A stretch of DNA of 38,116 bases from a virus: IMG/VR virus record IMGVR_UViG_3300010157_000130, positions 1-38,116 of that record; one strand, 5' to 3'. The position numbers and the translations under genes are program-made. Shown here piece by piece: positions 2,864 to 13,300 of the stretch (the stretch's first letter is position 1; every line of letters starts with the position of its first letter). The notes beneath the pieces were generated by a model. That model was given only the letters and a program-made list of their open reading frames with translations, was not told where the DNA came from and ran no database searches.

Positions 2864-3337
2864 TTATGCTTCAGCTGGTACTTCTTCTGATTTTGCTAAT
2901 CCTGGTTCTTCTTTTTCTGTCGGTAATTCATCTGACCTCGGTCCTTCTTCACTTTCTGGTCCTTGTGCTGATGTCTTAGCTCCATATCTCTGAAGTCTAG
3001 ATATAGCCATAGTTGCTCTTTGAATCTCTCCTATATTCATTAGGTAATATCGCTTACCTTGTACTGATGCTTCATATGCTTTTCCCATAAATGTCATATA
3101 GAAGTATTGAGCATTCTTAAGGAGTATTTTAAACGTAGTAGGCTTACCAGACATTATGAATACACCGGCAATATACTCCTCAAAATTATCGCCCATGAGC
3201 TTTTTTAAATTATCATTGAGTCTTTTGTACTTTTTAAGGATATAGCCCATGGGATTCTCCTCAAAGTTGGGATTTATTGATTGTTCTTCTCCAGCTTCTT
3301 TGAGTACTTTCTTGAGTATGTCTGTTAGTTTTATCAT
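2864..3337 (-). CDS. Leader-bearing phage protein with acidic C-terminus
   Basis: 157 residues. It begins MIKLTDILKKVLKEAGEEQS, the shared leader, here containing a possible prohead-protease site VLKE/A. The body (about residues 30-115) is probably mixed alpha/beta and includes GVFIMSGKPTTFKILLKN and YLMNIGEIQRATMAISRL. The last 35 residues are an acidic, Pro/Glu-rich tail. No enzyme motif is seen. The ATG overlaps the stop of a tiny upstream ORF (TAATG). By analogy to T4 internal proteins the leader would target it into the prohead and be removed; this is inference. The body is not recognised. Confidence 0.75.
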   Translation of the reverse strand: MIKLTDILKKVLKEAGEEQSINPNFEENPMGYILKKYKRLNDNLKKLMGDNFEEYIAGVFIMSGKPTTFKILLKNAQYFYMTFMGKAYEASVQGKRYYLMNIGEIQRATMAISRLQRYGAKTSAQGPESEEGPRSDELPTEKEEPGLAKSEEVPAEA

Positions 3338-3411
3338 TATTTTTCTATTTGTCTTAATGCCACTATAAGATTATCTATATCTTTATTACTCTCTAAAAGT
3401 TTATTTGACAT
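3337..3411 (-). CDS. Putative 24-residue micro-ORF
   Basis: ATG at 3411 to TAA at 3337-3339 encodes MSNKLLESNKDIDNL plus IVALRQIEK. It fills the only gap between the 206-residue gene and the 157-residue gene. Its start overlaps the end of the upstream gene in another frame, and its stop overlaps the next start as TAATG. The amphipathic helix-like composition and tight packing favour a real short gene or a coupling ORF, but a frame of this length could arise by chance. Confidence 0.35.
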   Translation of the reverse strand: MSNKLLESNKDIDNLIVALRQIEK

Positions 3412-4021
3412 ACCCTCTATCTTTTAGTTTTGATATGATATTGTCTACCTTATTTGATATCTTTTTATAGTGAGATTTCATTATAGATTCATGATCTTCA
3501 GAAGGTTGTCCCCAAACGTCTCCACTTTTATTTTCGCATTGTGAGCATTGTCCATCTATCATTTCTTCTCCACAATCTGTACAAACATCTTCTGCAATGG
3601 GGTGAGTTGACTTTATGGCATTCATATCTTGGTTATCGTATGAAGGTTGCTTAAAATACTTTCTCTTTTCATTTCCATAGTATATGTCTGGAGTCTCTGC
3701 TGGATTTGCTGTGAACTCCTTTAGCTTTCTTTCATTCCTTACTTTTATAATAGCGGCCTTGTCAATTCTTTTTATTATATCAGTGGCCTTTATAGCTATT
3801 ACAGTTGCACCTTTTCCTTCCACATCTATTACTAGCATCTCAGGTTTTACTCCAGGCTTAAAAGATGATTTTACTGGGAATTTCTCTTTTGTTTCAGGAC
3901 GATCCATAAATTTCTTGATCTCAGATTCTATCTGTTTGATCTTATCTGAAGTTATCACTATTCTACGATATGCTCCGAAGTCTTCAGGTCCTTCATTTAA
4001 AAAGCTTGCTAGTTTTATCAT
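3401..4021 (-). CDS. Leader-bearing protein with C-terminal zinc ribbon
   Basis: 206 residues. It starts with MIKLASFLNEGPEDFG, the shared leader with a possible cleavage point FLNE/G. Residues 18-100 look like an alpha/beta domain with IVITSDKIKQIESEIKKF and EMLVIDVEGKGATVIAIK, reminiscent of a small nucleic-acid- or protein-binding fold but not identified. A four-Cys zinc ribbon follows: C147, C150, C159 and C162 (CTDCGEEMIDGQCSQC). The C-terminus is a charged helix. An ATATTTATA element lies 16 bases upstream, so this gene may head a late transcript through the following genes. Function unknown; head packaging is inferred from the leader. Confidence 0.75.
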   Translation of the reverse strand: MIKLASFLNEGPEDFGAYRRIVITSDKIKQIESEIKKFMDRPETKEKFPVKSSFKPGVKPEMLVIDVEGKGATVIAIKATDIIKRIDKAAIIKVRNERKLKEFTANPAETPDIYYGNEKRKYFKQPSYDNQDMNAIKSTHPIAEDVCTDCGEEMIDGQCSQCENKSGDVWGQPSEDHESIMKSHYKKISNKVDNIISKLKDRGYVK

Positions 4022-4047: not shown

Positions 4048-4290
4048 TTACTCTTTAGGAGAAAACCAATCACTACACCACTTAGTTGGATCTTTTATGT
4101 CCATTACTCCATTTCCATTCCATGCTTCATAATACTGGTTTCCGCAGATATGCTGATCATTCTCATAGCTATAGTATTTGCAAACTGCACAGCTAAAACC
4201 ATTAGGACTATACATGAAAGGTTCGTGATTTGAAGGAAGTATTATCTCGCCTTTGATCTCTTCTTGGAGTAATTTTATGAGACTTATCAT
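4048..4290 (-). CDS. Small four-cysteine protein with leader (HiPIP-like pattern)
   Basis: 80 residues. The leader variant MISLIKLLQEEIKGE carries a possible LLQE/E site. Four cysteines are at C34, C37, C49 and C72: CAVCKYY, then HICGNQYYEAWNG, then a terminal KWCSDWFSP. The C-x2-C, C, C-x-x-W arrangement resembles a high-potential iron-sulfur protein, where four Cys hold one [4Fe-4S] cluster; a zinc knuckle is the alternative. Similar short proteins occur in other T4-like phages as far as I recall. It starts one base after the stop of the 370-residue gene, so the two are co-translated. A packaged metal-cluster protein would be unusual; the cluster type is inference. Confidence 0.75.
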   Translation of the reverse strand: MISLIKLLQEEIKGEIILPSNHEPFMYSPNGFSCAVCKYYSYENDQHICGNQYYEAWNGNGVMDIKDPTKWCSDWFSPKE

Positions 4291-4291
4291 T

Positions 4292-5404
4292 TTATTTTTT
4301 TATGTAATCACACATTATATGAGATGGATATATTCCTCCTTGTTTATTTCTTATATTTATTTTAAATGAATATAGTGATGATTCTACTGTTATATCAACT
4401 CTTTTACCAGATCCATCTATTCCACCATAATATACTTTTGGAGAAGAAACGTCTGATGCAGTTTTTGAATAACTACTATCAACTTTATAAAATTCAGCGC
4501 CAGCTTTTTTTATATGTGCCATATAATATCCTGACCCTATTCCTGATTCTATAAGTTTTTTAATCTTATCTATGTCATATTCCGCAGATGAGGGATTTTT
4601 ATTAAATTTAGAAAAATCAACATCTCCATAATCATTGAATACCTTACAAAATAATTTATTGTTTATTCCAAAAGTTTCTAACATCGCTACTCCATTAGGA
4701 TTTGTGATTTTTCCAAGTTTTATTTCTGAGGCTGGTAGTGCTTTTGTTACTCCTGAATTAAAAAATGTTAAAGTATTACCGTATTTTACAGATATATAGT
4801 AAGACTTATTACCTTTTACTATTGTTATATCAGTCAATGTAGATGCTACAGTTTCACCTAAGTAATCTATTATAGGACCTGATGAAGAAAATTTTAAGGG
4901 TCTTTTTTGATTTTCATGACCCATGGGTTTTATTTCAAAATTACCTTTCTCTAATCCTAATTCTTTTGACATTTCTATCATTAAACTTGGATATGAAAAC
5001 TTTGATTCATTCTTTTTTGAAATACCTTCTTCGTTTAATAAATTTAAATCTTTGACTAAAATAGTTTCAGTTCCAGGTCCTTTTGATTTAGTGCCTCTTC
5101 CTCCTCTAGATCCTTCTCCCCAAAGTATAGAAAGTCCATCCCAATTAGCTCCAGACGTATCACTTACATTTACTTTTAATTTATTTGATAAGTATTGTAT
5201 AAATTTTGGATCTCTTTGTAAACTTCTTGATATTTTTACTTTTTTAGATTTTGGATCTGACATTACTATTGGGTCTTCCATTTCTAATCCAGGATATTTT
5301 TTTATAATGGAAAAAAGCTTTTTCACAGAATCATTTTCTATTTCTTGTTCAGAAGTAGGAAAAAATTCAAAAGCCTCATATAGTATGTCAATTAATTTTA
5401 TCAT
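4292..5404 (-). CDS. Leader-bearing protein, possible PD-(D/E)xK-type nuclease fold
   Basis: 370 residues beginning MIKLIDILYEAFEFF, leader with possible site ILYE/A. After a linker, residues 25-100 include KLFSIIKKYPGLEMEDPIV. The central part has GRGTKSKGPGTETILVKDLN and, near residue 200, TDITIVKGNKSYYISVKYG. A D in one strand followed by a hairpin and S-V-K in the next resembles the D...xxK core of PD-(D/E)xK nucleases, and similar 'ISVK..G' cores occur in phage proteins. The C-terminal 100 residues are a Tyr/Ser-rich beta domain. It is strongly AT-rich relative to terminase and endolysin. ATGA overlap with the holin-like gene upstream. The nuclease idea is tentative; otherwise unknown. 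Confidence 0.7.
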   Translation of the reverse strand: MIKLIDILYEAFEFFPTSEQEIENDSVKKLFSIIKKYPGLEMEDPIVMSDPKSKKVKISRSLQRDPKFIQYLSNKLKVNVSDTSGANWDGLSILWGEGSRGGRGTKSKGPGTETILVKDLNLLNEEGISKKNESKFSYPSLMIEMSKELGLEKGNFEIKPMGHENQKRPLKFSSSGPIIDYLGETVASTLTDITIVKGNKSYYISVKYGNTLTFFNSGVTKALPASEIKLGKITNPNGVAMLETFGINNKLFCKVFNDYGDVDFSKFNKNPSSAEYDIDKIKKLIESGIGSGYYMAHIKKAGAEFYKVDSSYSKTASDVSSPKVYYGGIDGSGKRVDITVESSLYSFKINIRNKQGGIYPSHIMCDYIKK

Positions 5405-6257: not shown

Positions 6258-6725
6258 TTATGATTTTACTAGCTTAGTCTTATCTGTAAAGTCTACTCTT
6301 CTAATTGCTGGAACTGCTTTTACTTTATCTTCTATGGATTTTATCGTCTCTGTGCTAAAGTTTTCAAATGGGGCCGGATCTATCTTAATACTAATATCTA
6401 CAACATACTTCTTTAGCTTTTCTGCTGATGGTTGACGATTATTTGTAACACGCACAACAGTTATACCGACTATGGCTCTAATGTCAGAGAGGATATCTGT
6501 CAGCGATCTCTGAGTAGTATCAGCTACAAGTCTGCCTTCTATTTGATAGATTTTAGGACTTAGAGTTTCTTTCATAGAGTTTATATCCTTTGCCGCTTTG
6601 ATGGCCTTTTTAAAAGCAACGCTACCTTTATGAGCAGGTTTTTCTCCTCTCTTATGCTTTGCTTGGATATTTGCCCAGAGTCCTTTTCTTTTGACTTCCT
6701 GTAATATGCTAATGAGCTTTATCAT
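6258..6725 (-). CDS. Leader-bearing phage protein with basic N-terminal region
   Basis: 155 residues from the ATG at 6725. I chose this start over an upstream ATG at 6779 because it gives the shared leader MIKLISILQEVKRKG (possible site ILQE/V) and overlaps the preceding stop as ATGA. After the leader comes a very basic segment with LWANIQAKHKRGEKPAHKGS and KKAIKAAKDIN, a pattern seen in other T4-like phage proteins and suited to DNA or RNA binding. Residues 75-155 form an alpha/beta domain with repeated VDISIKID-like strands, ferredoxin-like in rhythm. No catalytic motif. A DNA-associated internal head protein is a reasonable inference, not shown. Confidence 0.75.
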   Translation of the reverse strand: MIKLISILQEVKRKGLWANIQAKHKRGEKPAHKGSVAFKKAIKAAKDINSMKETLSPKIYQIEGRLVADTTQRSLTDILSDIRAIVGITVVRVTNNRQPSAEKLKKYVVDISIKIDPAPFENFSTETIKSIEDKVKAVPAIRRVDFTDKTKLVKS

Positions 6726-6979
6726 TTTTTTATTATCTTTATCTTTACTGATCCTGTTCCTTTTATAGTGCGGTGCCAAATTCCTCTGGGTATAAATATC
6801 TCACCCTTCATCTCTATTGGCAATTGATTATCTATCTGAAACATCCAGTCTGTATCTCCTATGGCCTCTATTAACCGATCTTCACTATCTCTATGCCACT
6901 TAAGCTCTATTGGATCGATGTTCTCATCAAATTCTCTGATCAATATGTCTTCTATCAAAACGTCTTTATAAGGTCTCAT
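6722..6979 (-). CDS. Small conserved phage protein with WHRD motif
   Basis: 85 residues. It contains ELKWHRDSEDRLIEA, DWMFQIDNQLPIEMKG and IFIPRGIWHRTIKGTG, a combination I recognise from small conserved proteins of T4-like phages without assigned function. The two His/Trp motifs (WHRD and WHR), with the Gly-turn strands between, resemble a small cupin-like barrel (metal site HxD...H), but this is only a fold guess. It begins one base after the preceding stop and overlaps the next start by ATGA, so it is in the same operon. Its coding sequence for EIFIP happens to contain the ATATTTATA string (6791-6799); whether that copy functions is unknown. Confidence 0.8.
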   Translation of the reverse strand: MRPYKDVLIEDILIREFDENIDPIELKWHRDSEDRLIEAIGDTDWMFQIDNQLPIEMKGEIFIPRGIWHRTIKGTGSVKIKIIKK

Positions 6980-7960: not shown

Positions 7961-7990
7961 TTATTTTAAGAATGAAATTAATTTTATCAT
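7961..7990 (-). other. Leader-like nonapeptide ORF (MIKLISFLK) fused to end of upstream gene
   Basis: ATG at 7990 through TAA at 7961-7963 spells MIKLISFLK. At DNA level it starts ATGATAAAATTAATT, identical over 15 bases to the start of the 370-residue gene at 5404. It lies in frame with the Dps-like gene; only TAA AAC ATA separates them. It looks like a truncated leader module. Confidence 0.55.
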
Positions 7991-8371
7991 CCCTTCATCT
8001 ATATCTTGTTTTATATTTGAGAAATCGTCTTTGCCATTGACTACCTTTCTGAATATCGGTTTCTTATTCATAGCGTCTAGAACTATGATCTCAGTCCCGT
8101 CGTGTATCTTCATCCAGAGTTTTCCTTTGTAAGATGTCGTTACGTCCTTTACTATGATCATGTTGGTTTTGATGCCGCTTTTTGCTTTTATGGCTTCGAT
8201 CATCGCTGCATCAAAGTTCTTAGAAAGCTCAAACTCATCTGGTCTATTCTGTCTCAGAGCATAGTATATCGCTCCTTTTGGGTCCTTTGCATTTTTGAAT
8301 TCGAGAAATTTTATCTTTCCCTCTTTCGTATCTACCCAAGACATCGGAACTTTGCTGGCATATACATTCAT
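7961..8371 (-). CDS. Unknown phage protein ending in the leader peptide
   Basis: 136 residues, alpha/beta. N-terminal part VPMSWVDTKEGKIKFLEFKN and DPKGAIYYALRQNRPDEFEL; middle MIIVKDVTTSYKGKLWMKIH; no known catalytic motif recognised. Its last nine residues are MIKLISFLK, the same peptide that begins five other genes in this arm, placed at the C-terminus and followed at once by TAA. The previous gene stops five bases before this start, so it is part of the same operon. The body may be a regulatory or virion protein of unknown role. The C-terminal peptide is either part of the product or the remnant of a neighbouring leader gene. Confidence 0.7.
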   Translation of the reverse strand: MNVYASKVPMSWVDTKEGKIKFLEFKNAKDPKGAIYYALRQNRPDEFELSKNFDAAMIEAIKAKSGIKTNMIIVKDVTTSYKGKLWMKIHDGTEIIVLDAMNKKPIFRKVVNGKDDFSNIKQDIDEGMIKLISFLK

Positions 8372-9462: not shown

Positions 9463-10038
9463 CTAGATTTCAATAGCTTTAATTTTCTTAATGTTCTCCT
9501 TGATCTCGTCATATACCTGAGTCTTATTGCCACCCTTCCAACTTTCTACCTCTCCATTCTCAGATACAAAGGACTCATCTTGCATCTCAAACCAAGAATC
9601 TATTGCCTTTTCTATATCTTCTAGGGTAGCGTTCTTATTTGAATTTAGAATGCCTTTTTCATACTCTTCCCATTTGCCTTCTAGCTTTATCTTAGATTCC
9701 ATATCAATAACGCAATCAAAGCACATCTGGTGGATTGAATACATCTTCTTATTGAGGTCATGGGATTTCATAGGTTTTGAACACTTTGGACAACATAGAG
9801 GTAGACTCAACAGCTTTTTCACGGAATCCAGCTTTGTCACCGTCTGTTTTATCCCACGTTTTATAGTCCAAGTCTTACCATCTTCTTCCCAAATATCGCC
9901 CTCTAAATGATCTTCAGCCTTCTTTTCGTATCCTGACTGTATTTGGGTCTTGTCTCCTGTTTTTCCTGTTAGGAGATTTCTTAACCTTGTAACATCTTTT
10001 TTAGAGAACTCTTTTTTTAGGTTTGATTCCTTTGCCAT
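9463..10038 (-). CDS. Conserved phage zinc-finger protein
   Basis: 191 residues. Residues 45-65 hold EGDIWEEDGKTWTIKRGIKQ. They are followed by a four-Cys zinc site, C83, C86, C106 and C109 (CPKCSKPM and MCFDC), separated by a basic loop with MYSIHQ. The C-terminal half is helical and acidic. I recognise the GD(I/V)WEE-GKTWTIK-GIKQ and CPKC...HxxCFDC pattern from conserved unassigned proteins of T4-like phages. The start overlaps the end of the protease/ADP-ribosyltransferase gene by 38 bases in another frame, a long overlap that implies translational coupling. Nucleic-acid binding is plausible; no catalytic motif is present. Confidence 0.8.
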   Translation of the reverse strand: MAKESNLKKEFSKKDVTRLRNLLTGKTGDKTQIQSGYEKKAEDHLEGDIWEEDGKTWTIKRGIKQTVTKLDSVKKLLSLPLCCPKCSKPMKSHDLNKKMYSIHQMCFDCVIDMESKIKLEGKWEEYEKGILNSNKNATLEDIEKAIDSWFEMQDESFVSENGEVESWKGGNKTQVYDEIKENIKKIKAIEI

Positions 10039-10849
10039 GTTTCGTAACTTTACTTCTTTCTAGTGATATTTTAAAATTTCCTCTATCCGCAATAACTTCA
10101 TATTCTGGATCTGCATCTTTACATTTATATGTAGCTAATAATTTTATATTAGTGTTTTCTAATGGTTTTATTTTAATTACAATTTCAATACTATTATTGT
10201 CCCCAAGTGAATATTCTATAGCTTGATTAATATCTGGACTCCAAGAAGAGTATGATTTAGTTTTTAAAACTGTAAAATTTTTTGTATTTAATTTAAAATT
10301 ATTGAAATCTTCTATGTTATTAAAATTTAACCCTCTATATAAATCTTCAGATTGTTTATATGGATATAATTGATAAGCCACATTGAATTCTTTTTTATAT
10401 TCTCCATAATTGTCTATTTGATGATCAGGATCATATGTCCAATCTTTTATAAATGATTTTGCTTGTATTTTAAGATCCTTATTTATTGATTCGTATATCA
10501 GTGGTTGTATCTTTCCGTATTCCCTTAAACATATTCCAGCCACATCGTGTGCATCATTCTCTATCGGGCTTCCAGTCTCTCCAGATTTTGGTCCCAGAGT
10601 TCCCATCTCGTTCTGCTTGTGGTGAGTCATTTCATGCGCCAGAGTCCTACATATGTCAGCGAGGTTCCTGTTCTTTACGTAAACGACTAGAGATTTTGTC
10701 TCGTTAGTATATTCTCCGAATGTACGCTTATTTTTTACCCAAGAGTTATCAGATATGAATTTTATCTTTGGAAGAGTTTCGATTTCTAGAGCTTCTTTGC
10801 AAAATTTTATAAAGTCTGCAAGTATCTCTGCTTTTTTCTGTAGTTCCAT
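10001..10849 (-). CDS. Zinc metalloprotease - mono-ADP-ribosyltransferase fusion
   Basis: 282 residues in two parts. Residues 1-118 look like a gluzincin/SprT-type metallopeptidase: LAHEMTHHKQNE gives HExxH (H72, E73, H76), with E97 or H101 in PIENDAHD as possible third ligand. Residues 160-265 fit the R-S-E class of ADP-ribosyltransferases: DLYRGLNF with R172, TKSYSSWSPDINQA as the S-T-S-like motif (S199-S204), and DPEYEVI with E249/E251 as the ExE motif that normally dictates arginine modification. T4 Alt and ModA are phage precedents for host-modifying ARTs. LIYE/S at 117-121 lies at the domain junction and fits a prohead-protease site. Base composition falls sharply at the junction (near 10490). 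No N-terminal leader. Both activities are predicted, not shown. Confidence 0.8.
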   Translation of the reverse strand: MELQKKAEILADFIKFCKEALEIETLPKIKFISDNSWVKNKRTFGEYTNETKSLVVYVKNRNLADICRTLAHEMTHHKQNEMGTLGPKSGETGSPIENDAHDVAGICLREYGKIQPLIYESINKDLKIQAKSFIKDWTYDPDHQIDNYGEYKKEFNVAYQLYPYKQSEDLYRGLNFNNIEDFNNFKLNTKNFTVLKTKSYSSWSPDINQAIEYSLGDNNSIEIVIKIKPLENTNIKLLATYKCKDADPEYEVIADRGNFKISLERSKVTKHGKGIKPKKRVL

Positions 10850-10852
10850 GTT

Positions 10853-13300
10853 TTATCTTTTTACTGCTCTATTTGCAGCTGTGAATCCTGCTCTGTTTAC
10901 CAATTTTACTGTACCTTTGGGATTTGAAACAACGTATCCTTCACCTCCAGCTATATCACCTATATTTGCTTTTACTCCAGAATCTTGAGCGTCGAGTTGT
11001 TTTACTATGTCATTTTTTATCTCCATTATCTTTGAAACTACGCTAAAGACATCTATGATTGCATCCCCATGCTCTTTTATGTAAGCTTCCATATTTGCTT
11101 TTTTATTACCAGACAGAGACTCATTTGCTATGAAAGAAAGAAAATCTTTACCTAATCCCTTTGTATTTCCAACTTTAGAATTATTATACTTGTACATTAA
11201 GTCTGGAAGATCAGATATCTTTTTGGCTGATAAAATAGGTTTGTCAAGGAATGAGTTTATCTCAGAAGCTTTTGATTTTACATCTGACATTGCTGATTTA
11301 ACGGCGCTTGTGTTTATATTTGGTGGAGTAGTAACTGACATTGGCGGTACTACTAAAAGCCCCTTTCCTTCTATAAATCCATACTGTTTTATATCTTTTA
11401 TCGCAGTTTCATTTCCATCATAATCTAAGAATCTATGAATGACTACCCCAGTTTTACTATCGCCTATCTTCTTTCCAAGATCGCTATTTTGAGCTACTGA
11501 GTATGTTGTGATATTAGGCTTAAATACGTAATTGCCGCCTTTTAATTCTGGGGTTGATTGATATAGCAGATCTCCTTTAAAATACCCCTTTACGCTTTTG
11601 GGTACTGATTTTTCAAATACGTCAAATATGCTACCCATGCTTTTTGCAAACTTAGTATATGATCCAGCCGTGTCTTCTTTGCCTTTGAGTCTGTCCATGA
11701 ACATCTTCTCTAAATCTTTTCCGCTCGTCACTTTTCCATCATACCCCTTTGCAGAGAATCCACTTTTATCAGTCAATACAAAAGTACCGTCTTCTTTTCT
11801 TCCAAATATGACAGCTGGTGATCCATCCCACTTTATTGTGATATCTTTAGAATCTTTCCCTAAACCTGCTAATATACTAAGAGCATTTAGAGCCCCTTTT
11901 GATCCATCCCAAAATATCATATCTTCTGGGTGTTGTATTCTTGCTTCTGCTGCTTCGGTGATCATAGATTCTTTTAGTGAAGTGGGAATATCTAGTCCTT
12001 CTTTGTCAAAGTCTTCTTTTGCTTGCTTTATCAGATCTTCATAATCAGGTCTGTCTTTTATTGCATGGATAATAGATTCAACACTCTCCATATCTTTTCT
12101 AGTGTTACCTTTCCCAAGTAGCATCTCAGCTATCTTATCAGGATCTTTGGTTATCACTTCGTTTGTAGTTCTATCAACTAGACCATGCTTATACGACCAT
12201 TTTAGATTCTGTGCTTTTGCTATACTTGAAAGTAAAAGGTGTCTATGCATTCCTTTGAATTTGGAATTATCAGCCCCTCCCAGCATTGAAAATTTCATCC
12301 ATTCAGGTTCTCCAAACATAAAGTCAGTCTGTACAAAACCATTCTTTGGGTTGCCTCCTATTGCAGTCTTGAAGTGAACACTGTCTCCAGATTTTTTTAC
12401 ATAAGATTTATCATATCCTGCTTTTGCAAGTATGCCTATAAGATCTTCTTTACTAAGCTTTGATACATCTACGGCTAAATCAAGATCTCCACTTGTGTCT
12501 TTCTTTCCTGTGGTACCCAATGCATTATCGAGTAATTTAAGCCCGGTTATTTTTTCTAGCCATTGGATAGTAGGAATCACATCAGCTCTATTTATCCTTT
12601 GGGTTTCTGATTGACCTTCTTTGTCCTTAAATACATTGCCACCTTCAGTTATCAAAGTCCGTATTGCGTTCTCTAATATAATCCTATTGAAAGAATATCT
12701 TGATTCTTTTATTGAAAATTTGTCTTTTAACATCTTGGCTATTTTTGGATCATACCAACCAAAAACTCCTATAAAAAGCTTCTTATAGTCTTCTGGAGAT
12801 ACATTAGCCGATAGCGCCTTTCTTACATTTGTACCGCTCATCTCTCCAATTCCAGGTATATCAAAACTCATATGAGGCGCCACTATCAAATATCCATGTC
12901 TGTCAAAGCCTTCAAGTTTCTTTTCATTTCCAGCATATGGTTTAAAGTATCCAGGCGAACCATCTTTCTTAGGATTCATTGCAAATCTTGGATCGTCTTT
13001 CATATCCTTTTCTCCTACCATGAATACTAGCGCTGTATCTTTTGGATCATACTTTGCTGTGATCTCTTCTGCTTTATATGGATTCTTTACTTGAACTAGA
13101 TTTGCCCCATATCCAAACTTATCAATGATCATTTTCTTTTCTAAAAAATTCAACGGACTTTTAATTGGATCTACTTTATCCGTAGTTGCTATGAAGCAGT
13201 CTTTGCCAAATTTAGATTCTAGCCACTTAAAAGCTTCAGAATGGTGCTTCGAAAATGGTTGAAAGCGGCCCGGAAAAATCGCAATTATATTTTTTATCAT
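10853..13300 (-). CDS. Three-domain nucleotidyltransferase protein (NMNAT-like + NTase + ligase-like)
   Basis: 815 residues. Domain 1 (1-210) is a cytidylyltransferase/NMNAT-like fold: IFPGRFQPFSKHH at 8-20 and MSGTNVRKAL as the ISSTxxR-type motif. Domain 2 (about 220-430) resembles a polymerase-beta-type nucleotidyltransferase: GTTGKKDTSGDLDLAVD near 263-278 (GG/GS-like turn plus DxD). Domain 3 (about 450-815) resembles the covalent nucleotidyltransferase (DNA/RNA ligase) superfamily: IKWDGSPAVIFGR near 489-500 (motif I KxDG) and GGEGYVV with TVKLVNR near 785-800 (motifs IV and V). TLITE/G near 217 and SMITE/A near 448, sited at the domain borders, fit prohead-protease cleavage. It follows the recombination gene by 13 bases containing an ATATTTATA element. 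Substrates unknown. Confidence 0.85.
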   Translation of the reverse strand: MIKNIIAIFPGRFQPFSKHHSEAFKWLESKFGKDCFIATTDKVDPIKSPLNFLEKKMIIDKFGYGANLVQVKNPYKAEEITAKYDPKDTALVFMVGEKDMKDDPRFAMNPKKDGSPGYFKPYAGNEKKLEGFDRHGYLIVAPHMSFDIPGIGEMSGTNVRKALSANVSPEDYKKLFIGVFGWYDPKIAKMLKDKFSIKESRYSFNRIILENAIRTLITEGGNVFKDKEGQSETQRINRADVIPTIQWLEKITGLKLLDNALGTTGKKDTSGDLDLAVDVSKLSKEDLIGILAKAGYDKSYVKKSGDSVHFKTAIGGNPKNGFVQTDFMFGEPEWMKFSMLGGADNSKFKGMHRHLLLSSIAKAQNLKWSYKHGLVDRTTNEVITKDPDKIAEMLLGKGNTRKDMESVESIIHAIKDRPDYEDLIKQAKEDFDKEGLDIPTSLKESMITEAAEARIQHPEDMIFWDGSKGALNALSILAGLGKDSKDITIKWDGSPAVIFGRKEDGTFVLTDKSGFSAKGYDGKVTSGKDLEKMFMDRLKGKEDTAGSYTKFAKSMGSIFDVFEKSVPKSVKGYFKGDLLYQSTPELKGGNYVFKPNITTYSVAQNSDLGKKIGDSKTGVVIHRFLDYDGNETAIKDIKQYGFIEGKGLLVVPPMSVTTPPNINTSAVKSAMSDVKSKASEINSFLDKPILSAKKISDLPDLMYKYNNSKVGNTKGLGKDFLSFIANESLSGNKKANMEAYIKEHGDAIIDVFSVVSKIMEIKNDIVKQLDAQDSGVKANIGDIAGGEGYVVSNPKGTVKLVNRAGFTAANRAVKR

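Follow-up and report, generated by a model that had tools for sequence, protein, structure and literature searches.

The 815-residue protein encoded at positions 10853 to 13300 (minus strand, like every feature of the window located below) is probably a head-packaged cargo polyprotein, which a T4-type prohead protease would cut at sites recognizable in its sequence. The window, which is the whole stretch of 38,116 nucleotides analyzed here, appears to derive from a lake-water virus with a bacterial host, and this 38-kb record is probably a fragment. ORF calling gave an intact reading frame with an ATG start. The gene neighbourhood is T4-like, with a T4-type terminase, a primase gene upstream and, from reading by eye, an SbcCD-like gene also upstream; the polyprotein gene is located between head-packaging and DNA-metabolism genes. 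A protease gene could not be recognized in the window; Rfam and tRNA searches of the window and a PADLOC search gave no match. A scan of viral contigs yielded 80 loci, about a dozen of them with a three-domain ORF, full or truncated. The fusion alignment comprised eight sequences, the 815-residue protein being 54-96% identical over its full length to its seven fusion relatives. Cellular or prophage relatives were not found in the genome-contig scan.

A first-pass annotation, made from the letters alone, had proposed three nucleotidyl-transfer domains in this single ORF and had advised fold prediction for each part. The motifs on which it relied (GRFQPFSKHH, SGTNVR, SGDLDL, KWDGSP, EGYVV, KLVNR) are all present, and the three domains are confirmed. 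Domain 1 (residues 1-199, positions 12704..13300) is a HIGH-superfamily adenylyltransferase, NMNAT/PPAT-like. Its matches to PF01467 and to a cytidyltransferase PHROG were weak, as was the best result of a sequence-only PDB search (1f9a, M. jannaschii MJ0541, E 0.25). For the predicted structure of domain 1, the top Foldseek matches were NadM 2qjo, PPAT 3k9w and NadD 8aih (prob 0.99-1.0, E 4e-3 to 3e-2). GRFQP..xHH is conserved among domain-1 relatives and SGTxxR is present in 77 of 79, which together with the fold agrees with the SxTxxR-type motif of the HIGH superfamily. The (H/T)xGH signature was not found: all 77 relatives that have the motif carry [GSA]xHH, two of them in the form AGPHH, and the last His is kept. 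The substrate of domain 1 is uncertain because of this replacement. The cyanophage cytidylyltransferases of T4-GC190 are also HIGH-superfamily transferases; they are found in virions, often with a targeting-like leader (MRFLDFIKE|A), but they are stand-alone proteins with HAGH or TTGH, whereas domain 1 is fused and has [GSA]xHH. A predicted NMNAT activity of domain 1 could restore NAD, which is consumed by ADP-ribosyltransferases (ARTs) and is a target of defences (PMC9503650). A general NadV-NMNAT salvage pathway was considered and rejected, since, of the 6 relatives searched, 5 lack NadV, the partner enzyme in nicotinamide salvage. In one genome with an NMNAT fusion (G004), a NadV-like gene (PF04095, C1:111469-112365) and an RNA ligase gene (113380-113973) are close neighbours.

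Domain 2 (residues 220-444, positions 11969..12643) is a PolX-like nucleotidyltransferase, as indicated by its AlphaFold2 model, by Foldseek and by its Asp motifs (SGDLDL, VQTDFM). The model of residues 220-815 reached a mean pLDDT of 93.8, and domain 2 within it matched Pol lambda, mu and beta at prob 1.00 (E about 1e-3 to 5e-2), that is, a Pol beta-type fold. SGD[LIM]D and VQxD are nearly universal in domain-2 homologues, in keeping with the G-S/T...DxD motif and third Asp of Pol beta. Domain 2 thus has in common with the PolX polymerases (Pol beta, lambda, mu and ASFV PolX) the fold, SGDxD and the third Asp, but it is only about 225 residues long and its sequence identity to them is just 11-19%. 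Sequence-only PDB searches were uninformative for domains 2 and 3.

Domain 3 (residues 450-815, positions 10856..11953) belongs to DUF6267 (PF19782, E=2.7e-35, 122.9 bits against a gathering score of 27), which corresponds to cyanophage T4-GC 71, and is here fused to two other domains. It is ligase-like by its motifs (KWDGSP, EGYVV, KLVNR): KxDG, EGxV and K[LF]VxR, characteristic of covalent nucleotidyltransferases, are kept in more than 100 homologues. For this domain the ligase assignment of the first-pass annotation held for the motifs, while the fold matches were weak, to fungal tRNA ligase Trl1, T4 Rnl1 and AsfvLIG at prob 0.1-0.35 and to a phage RNA ligase at prob 0.82. Our literature search retrieved no paper on DUF6267 and no described function for it. 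The enzymatic roles of the three domains are put forward tentatively.

The strict pattern [LI]xE[AGS] has only four matches in the 815 residues (IKE199|S, ITE219|G, LKE444|S and ITE449|A), and all of them are in the linkers, at the borders of the would-be mature parts, as a gp21-type (L/I)xE|small-residue motif should be; as background, a related genome contains about 2 such matches per 815 residues. Both LxE-type sites of the first-pass annotation were real, although LITE, placed near 217, ends at E219 and MITE, placed near 448, at E449. Two further sites, IKE199|S and LKE444|S, lie just upstream, so that each linker is bracketed by a pair. Linker 1 (residues 200-219, SRYSFNRIILENAIRTLITE, positions 12644..12703) and linker 2 (residues 445-449, SMITE, positions 11954..11968) both have low pLDDT. 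The sites go beyond a chance occurrence: E219, E444 and E449 are invariant across the eight aligned fusions, as are G220 and G221, in linkers that are for the most part variable. The full-length model, built from 8 sequences, was disordered at 198-245 (pLDDT <50) and at 434-455, but it was poor for domain 2 and the former stretch takes in part of domain 2 that is ordered in the better model; for this reason an alignment of 124 rows was used for residues 220-815. In that model the sole segment with pLDDT <50 is 445-450.

The concentration of sites in the first linker is a wider feature of these proteins. The analysis of 24 non-redundant NMNAT fusions gave 23 sites among 1,104 first-linker residues and 29 among the 16,335 residues elsewhere, a density 11.7 times higher in the linker, with at least one first-linker site in 19 of the 24; their NMNAT domains, 4,745 residues in all, contain 1 site. 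The T4 sequences served as a benchmark. The sites that we read in IPI (ITE19|A), gp24 (MAKINELLRE10|S), gp23 (LTE65|A) and gp21 (LIE9) agree with the published cuts, namely leaders of 10-19 residues, 65 residues in gp23, 10 in gp24 and LIE-9. In the T4 leader, residues 8 and 10 govern processing, Asp at 10 being inhibitory, and T4 Alt is known to lose residues from both termini (PMC9026906).

The same borders recur when the modules are found in other arrangements. In other phages, unrelated cargos follow the NMNAT module, with LLxE|GG or a similar sequence at the joint. One locus (L012) has the order NMNAT, another KxDG protein and domain 2, with LVKE|GG ahead of domain 2; another (L152) has the reversed order, domain 3 then domain 2, with LTE|GG between them. 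Wherever domain 2 is preceded by any leader, fusions included, the residue before GG is Glu (86 of 86), with L, I, V or F at P3 (86 of 86) and P2 free. The remaining five domain-2 proteins have Met at that place (Met-GG or Met-SG). Met preceding Gly or Ser is normally removed, so the leader and the Met-start routes would leave the same N-terminus on domain 2. For domain 3, the first-pass annotation had expected stand-alone relatives starting at the sites, and many were indeed found: leaders end with [LIVF]xE before A(R)IQH, or the protein starts M(A/S)KNTHLEH without a leader. The T4-like leaders of the stand-alone proteins include MRAFEFLTE|A, MITFQTFIAE|A, MLNFSGFLAE|D and MKLYEIKRQTPEFLLTE|S, while the stand-alone proteins of many marine cyanophages have none. 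[LIVF]xE precedes domain 3 in 75 of 82 leaders, where shuffles gave 31, and in all 16 fusions, where shuffles gave 4.3, although such border counts are not independent and are inflated, as the sequences are related. The pattern of presence and absence is hard to account for by folding constraints.

The partners of domain 2 also vary. Among 79 loci found via domain 2 alone, domain 3 was in the same ORF in 8 and in a separate downstream gene in 63, the separate genes mostly overlapping by 4 bases; elsewhere domain 2 adjoins other KxDG proteins, the neighbour in Atu_ph07 being a weak RNA_ligase match. Proteins of about 565 residues, found in L036 and about 40 similar loci, have a different, frequently found cargo following the NMNAT module (GGAAGHMAHPFD...VKIDGVNASIRL). 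This cargo contains a KxDG ligase-like motif and gave no match in Pfam and PHROG searches. Its borders have Cys or Asp at P1 in 5 of 32 distinct cases. In the NMNAT fusions of L016 and L072, an HNH-like endonuclease sequence is present at or near the E|GG border and is followed by Cys instead of Glu before GG. Self-splicing introns were considered for the Cys exceptions (LLLC|GG), and an Rfam search gave none; these borders consequently remain counter-examples.

Targeting-like leaders are also present on neighbouring genes of the window. Gene 4292-5404 starts with MIKLIDILYE|A (5375..5404), of the same form as the T4 gp24 leader. Reading of the sequences gave further leaders in gene 2864-3337 (MIKLTDILKKVLKE|A, 3296..3337), gene 3401-4021 (MIKLASFLNE|G, 3992..4021) and gene 4048-4290 (MISLIKLLQE|E, 4261..4290). 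Another, MIKLISILQE|V (6696..6725), begins at an ATG within ORF 6258-6779, and its orthologue in G001, a 158-kb relative, starts MISLISILQE. On other contigs, 131 of 677 genes near domains 2 and 3 have such leaders, against 46 in shuffles. The 815-residue protein itself begins at its own domain (MIKNIIAIFPGRFQP) and has no N-terminal targeting leader of about 10-19 residues. Leaders are present in homologues of Microcystis phage Mel-JY01, with the sites LLSE and IIAE|GG, and of Methylophilales phage Melnitz, with YITE|D, FLSE|A and IIE|A. Linker 1 is a possible internal targeting peptide.

The gene just downstream of the polyprotein gene (10001-10849) encodes what is apparently, judged from its sequence, a second two-part cargo protein. 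It consists of a metallopeptidase-like domain (residues 1-120, positions 10490..10849), which ends with LIYE|S at a border conserved in homologues, and of an ART-like domain (residues 121-282, positions 10004..10489) recognized by eye (LYRG, SYSSWS, EYE) and without match in a Pfam search. The border I[YF]E is present in 56 of 58 metallopeptidase-like homologues, the other two being a truncated contig and a remote match. Most homologues lack the ART-like domain and have a tail that begins right after IYE, in many cases the short tail SxSLKLxxILKEIKRK; the G001 orthologue stops right after IYE (NIYE*). The tails resemble N-terminal leaders (MIKLADILKEIG in G001, MIKLKDILLE in G002) and may on that ground be targeting peptides at the C-terminus. 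In L020-L045, the metallopeptidase homologues have leader-like C-terminal tails after an [I]xE site (SESLKLGNILKEIKRK). Likewise, gene 7961-8371 ends with the tail GMIKLISFLK (7964..7993) after IDE126|G, and its G001 orthologue ends ILSE|NIIKCLLSKNK. These C-terminal tails, in both cases, are possible capsid-targeting peptides.

Of the 9 records searched, 8 encode a gp21-type protease (PF03420). G001, whose orthologue of the polyprotein is 73% identical, encodes one; the product of its putative major capsid gene begins with MNLVNSLLQE|S and its protease with MSKQLLIE|Y. In the G001 (L100) protease gene (C1:81498-83207, minus strand), about 365 codons are inserted in frame right after GELDHPE, with the borders DHPE|CLRPSAM...LSGN|CSTIN; in sequence, the insert looks like an intein near the active site. 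Virion data are available for relatives of two domains. In PA5oct, the domain-2 homologue EST35_0231 carries the annotation of structural protein on the basis of ESI-MS/MS. NMNAT-like cytidylyltransferases were detected by mass spectrometry in virions of S-SM1 (PMC3037559), S-SCSM1 (PMC9602691), S-CREM2 (PMC10665884) and S-SZBM1 (PMC9146016); the S-SZBM1 protein has the leader MRFRQFIIE|A. The domain-3 protein of S-SZBM1 was not seen in the part of the virion table that was examined (PMC9146016), and virion evidence was found for no domain-3 homologue. The earlier proposal of a polyprotein cut during head maturation has good, though indirect, support from border sites in many architectures, from the leaders of homologues and from the protease and virion mass spectrometry of relatives.

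We propose that the polyprotein would be drawn into the prohead core during assembly of a T4-type phage head, probably via the linker joining domains 1 and 2, which is helical and similar to the short targeting leaders of the neighbouring proteins. The gp21-type prohead protease of the phage would then cleave the chain following the Glu of each paired (L/I)xE site. Three fragments had been predicted, of 217, 231 and 367 residues; the number stands, but since the cuts are probably double, the sizes are revised to about 199 (NMNAT-like adenylyltransferase), 225 (PolX-like nucleotidyltransferase) and 366 residues (ligase-like enzyme), and linker peptides of 20 and 5 residues would be discarded. 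The freed enzymes would be ejected with the DNA. Domain 1 would probably support NAD or a related adenylated cofactor, while domains 2 and 3 may act as an end-repair pair, adding nucleotides to broken ends and sealing them; a nucleotide-adding and a sealing enzyme together suggest that cut DNA or RNA is repaired. The action on NAD, RNA or tRNA put forward in the first-pass annotation is conjectural.

The protein could alternatively be an ordinary multidomain enzyme, a single repair enzyme that stays uncut in the infected cell and in which xE-GG and xE-A cap the start of each domain structurally. Conservation of GG and ARIQH as domain starts in their own right is in line with this, as is the order that the 220-815 model gives to the N-terminal segment GGNVF; the D3-NMNAT fusion of S-PM2 has no site at its joint, and the Cys or Asp at P1 in some 565-type fusions fits as well. 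But Glu is missing from proteins that begin with the domain itself (Met-GG, MAKNTHLEH) and is nearly always there with a leader, the site persists in the reversed domain order of L152, the leaders are of T4 targeting type and the linkers are bracketed by pairs of sites, which makes such an enzyme unlikely.

Two other readings accept packaging in part. The polyprotein could be packaged via its linker and delivered largely uncut, like the N4 virion RNA polymerase or the polyvalent proteins carried by conjugation, for which unprocessed delivery is possible (PMC5512222). We consider this quite improbable, given the near-perfect T4-type cleavage sites at both joints and the stand-alone homologues, in which single domains suffice. 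Or the sites might be used in just the small number of molecules that reach heads, the protein acting mainly inside the cell, late in infection. Such a role would suit the location of the gene between head-packaging and DNA-metabolism genes, and phage NMNAT-like genes are often taken as metabolic genes, but purified virions contained relatives of domains 1 and 2, and it appears highly improbable.

The cargo polyprotein that we favour can be compared with two known systems. In T4, the internal head proteins and Alt carry a short N-terminal leader ending with (L/I)xE, are cut by the prohead protease and are ejected with the DNA (PMC9026906). Each T4 cargo is however one protein per gene, whereas the 815-residue protein joins three enzymes, with paired internal sites and no N-terminal leader. 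The polyvalent proteins of phages and conjugative elements (Iyer et al.) combine several enzymes and are presumed to reach the host together with DNA; their domains include nucleotidyltransferases and metallopeptidases (PMC5512222). The multidomain architecture is common to both, delivery being presumed here; but release of polyvalent proteins was proposed to occur by embedded metallopeptidases (PMC5512222), whereas the present sites fit the head protease of T4-like phages. No paper on enzyme polyproteins cut by a head protease was retrieved in our literature search.

More broadly, and with somewhat less than even confidence, we hypothesize that T4-like phages of lakes and seas use a modular cargo system, in which the (L/I)xE targeting peptide may be N-terminal, C-terminal or between domains and enzymes may be joined as cleavable polyproteins. 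Here it would deliver an adenylyltransferase along with two enzymes, the PolX-like transferase and the DUF6267 ligase, for the repair of nucleic-acid damage inflicted by the host at the time of infection. If the polyprotein reading is right, covalent nucleotidyl transfer would be the likely chemistry of DUF6267 and the PolX-like transferase its constant partner, and the (L/I)xE border would become a searchable mark of unknown injected proteins. The head protease would double as the enzyme that frees the cargo, and several host-takeover enzymes could be packed in the head and released as separate enzymes. Tailed phages would use proteolytic polyproteins for injected enzymes, as many RNA viruses do for their replication proteins.
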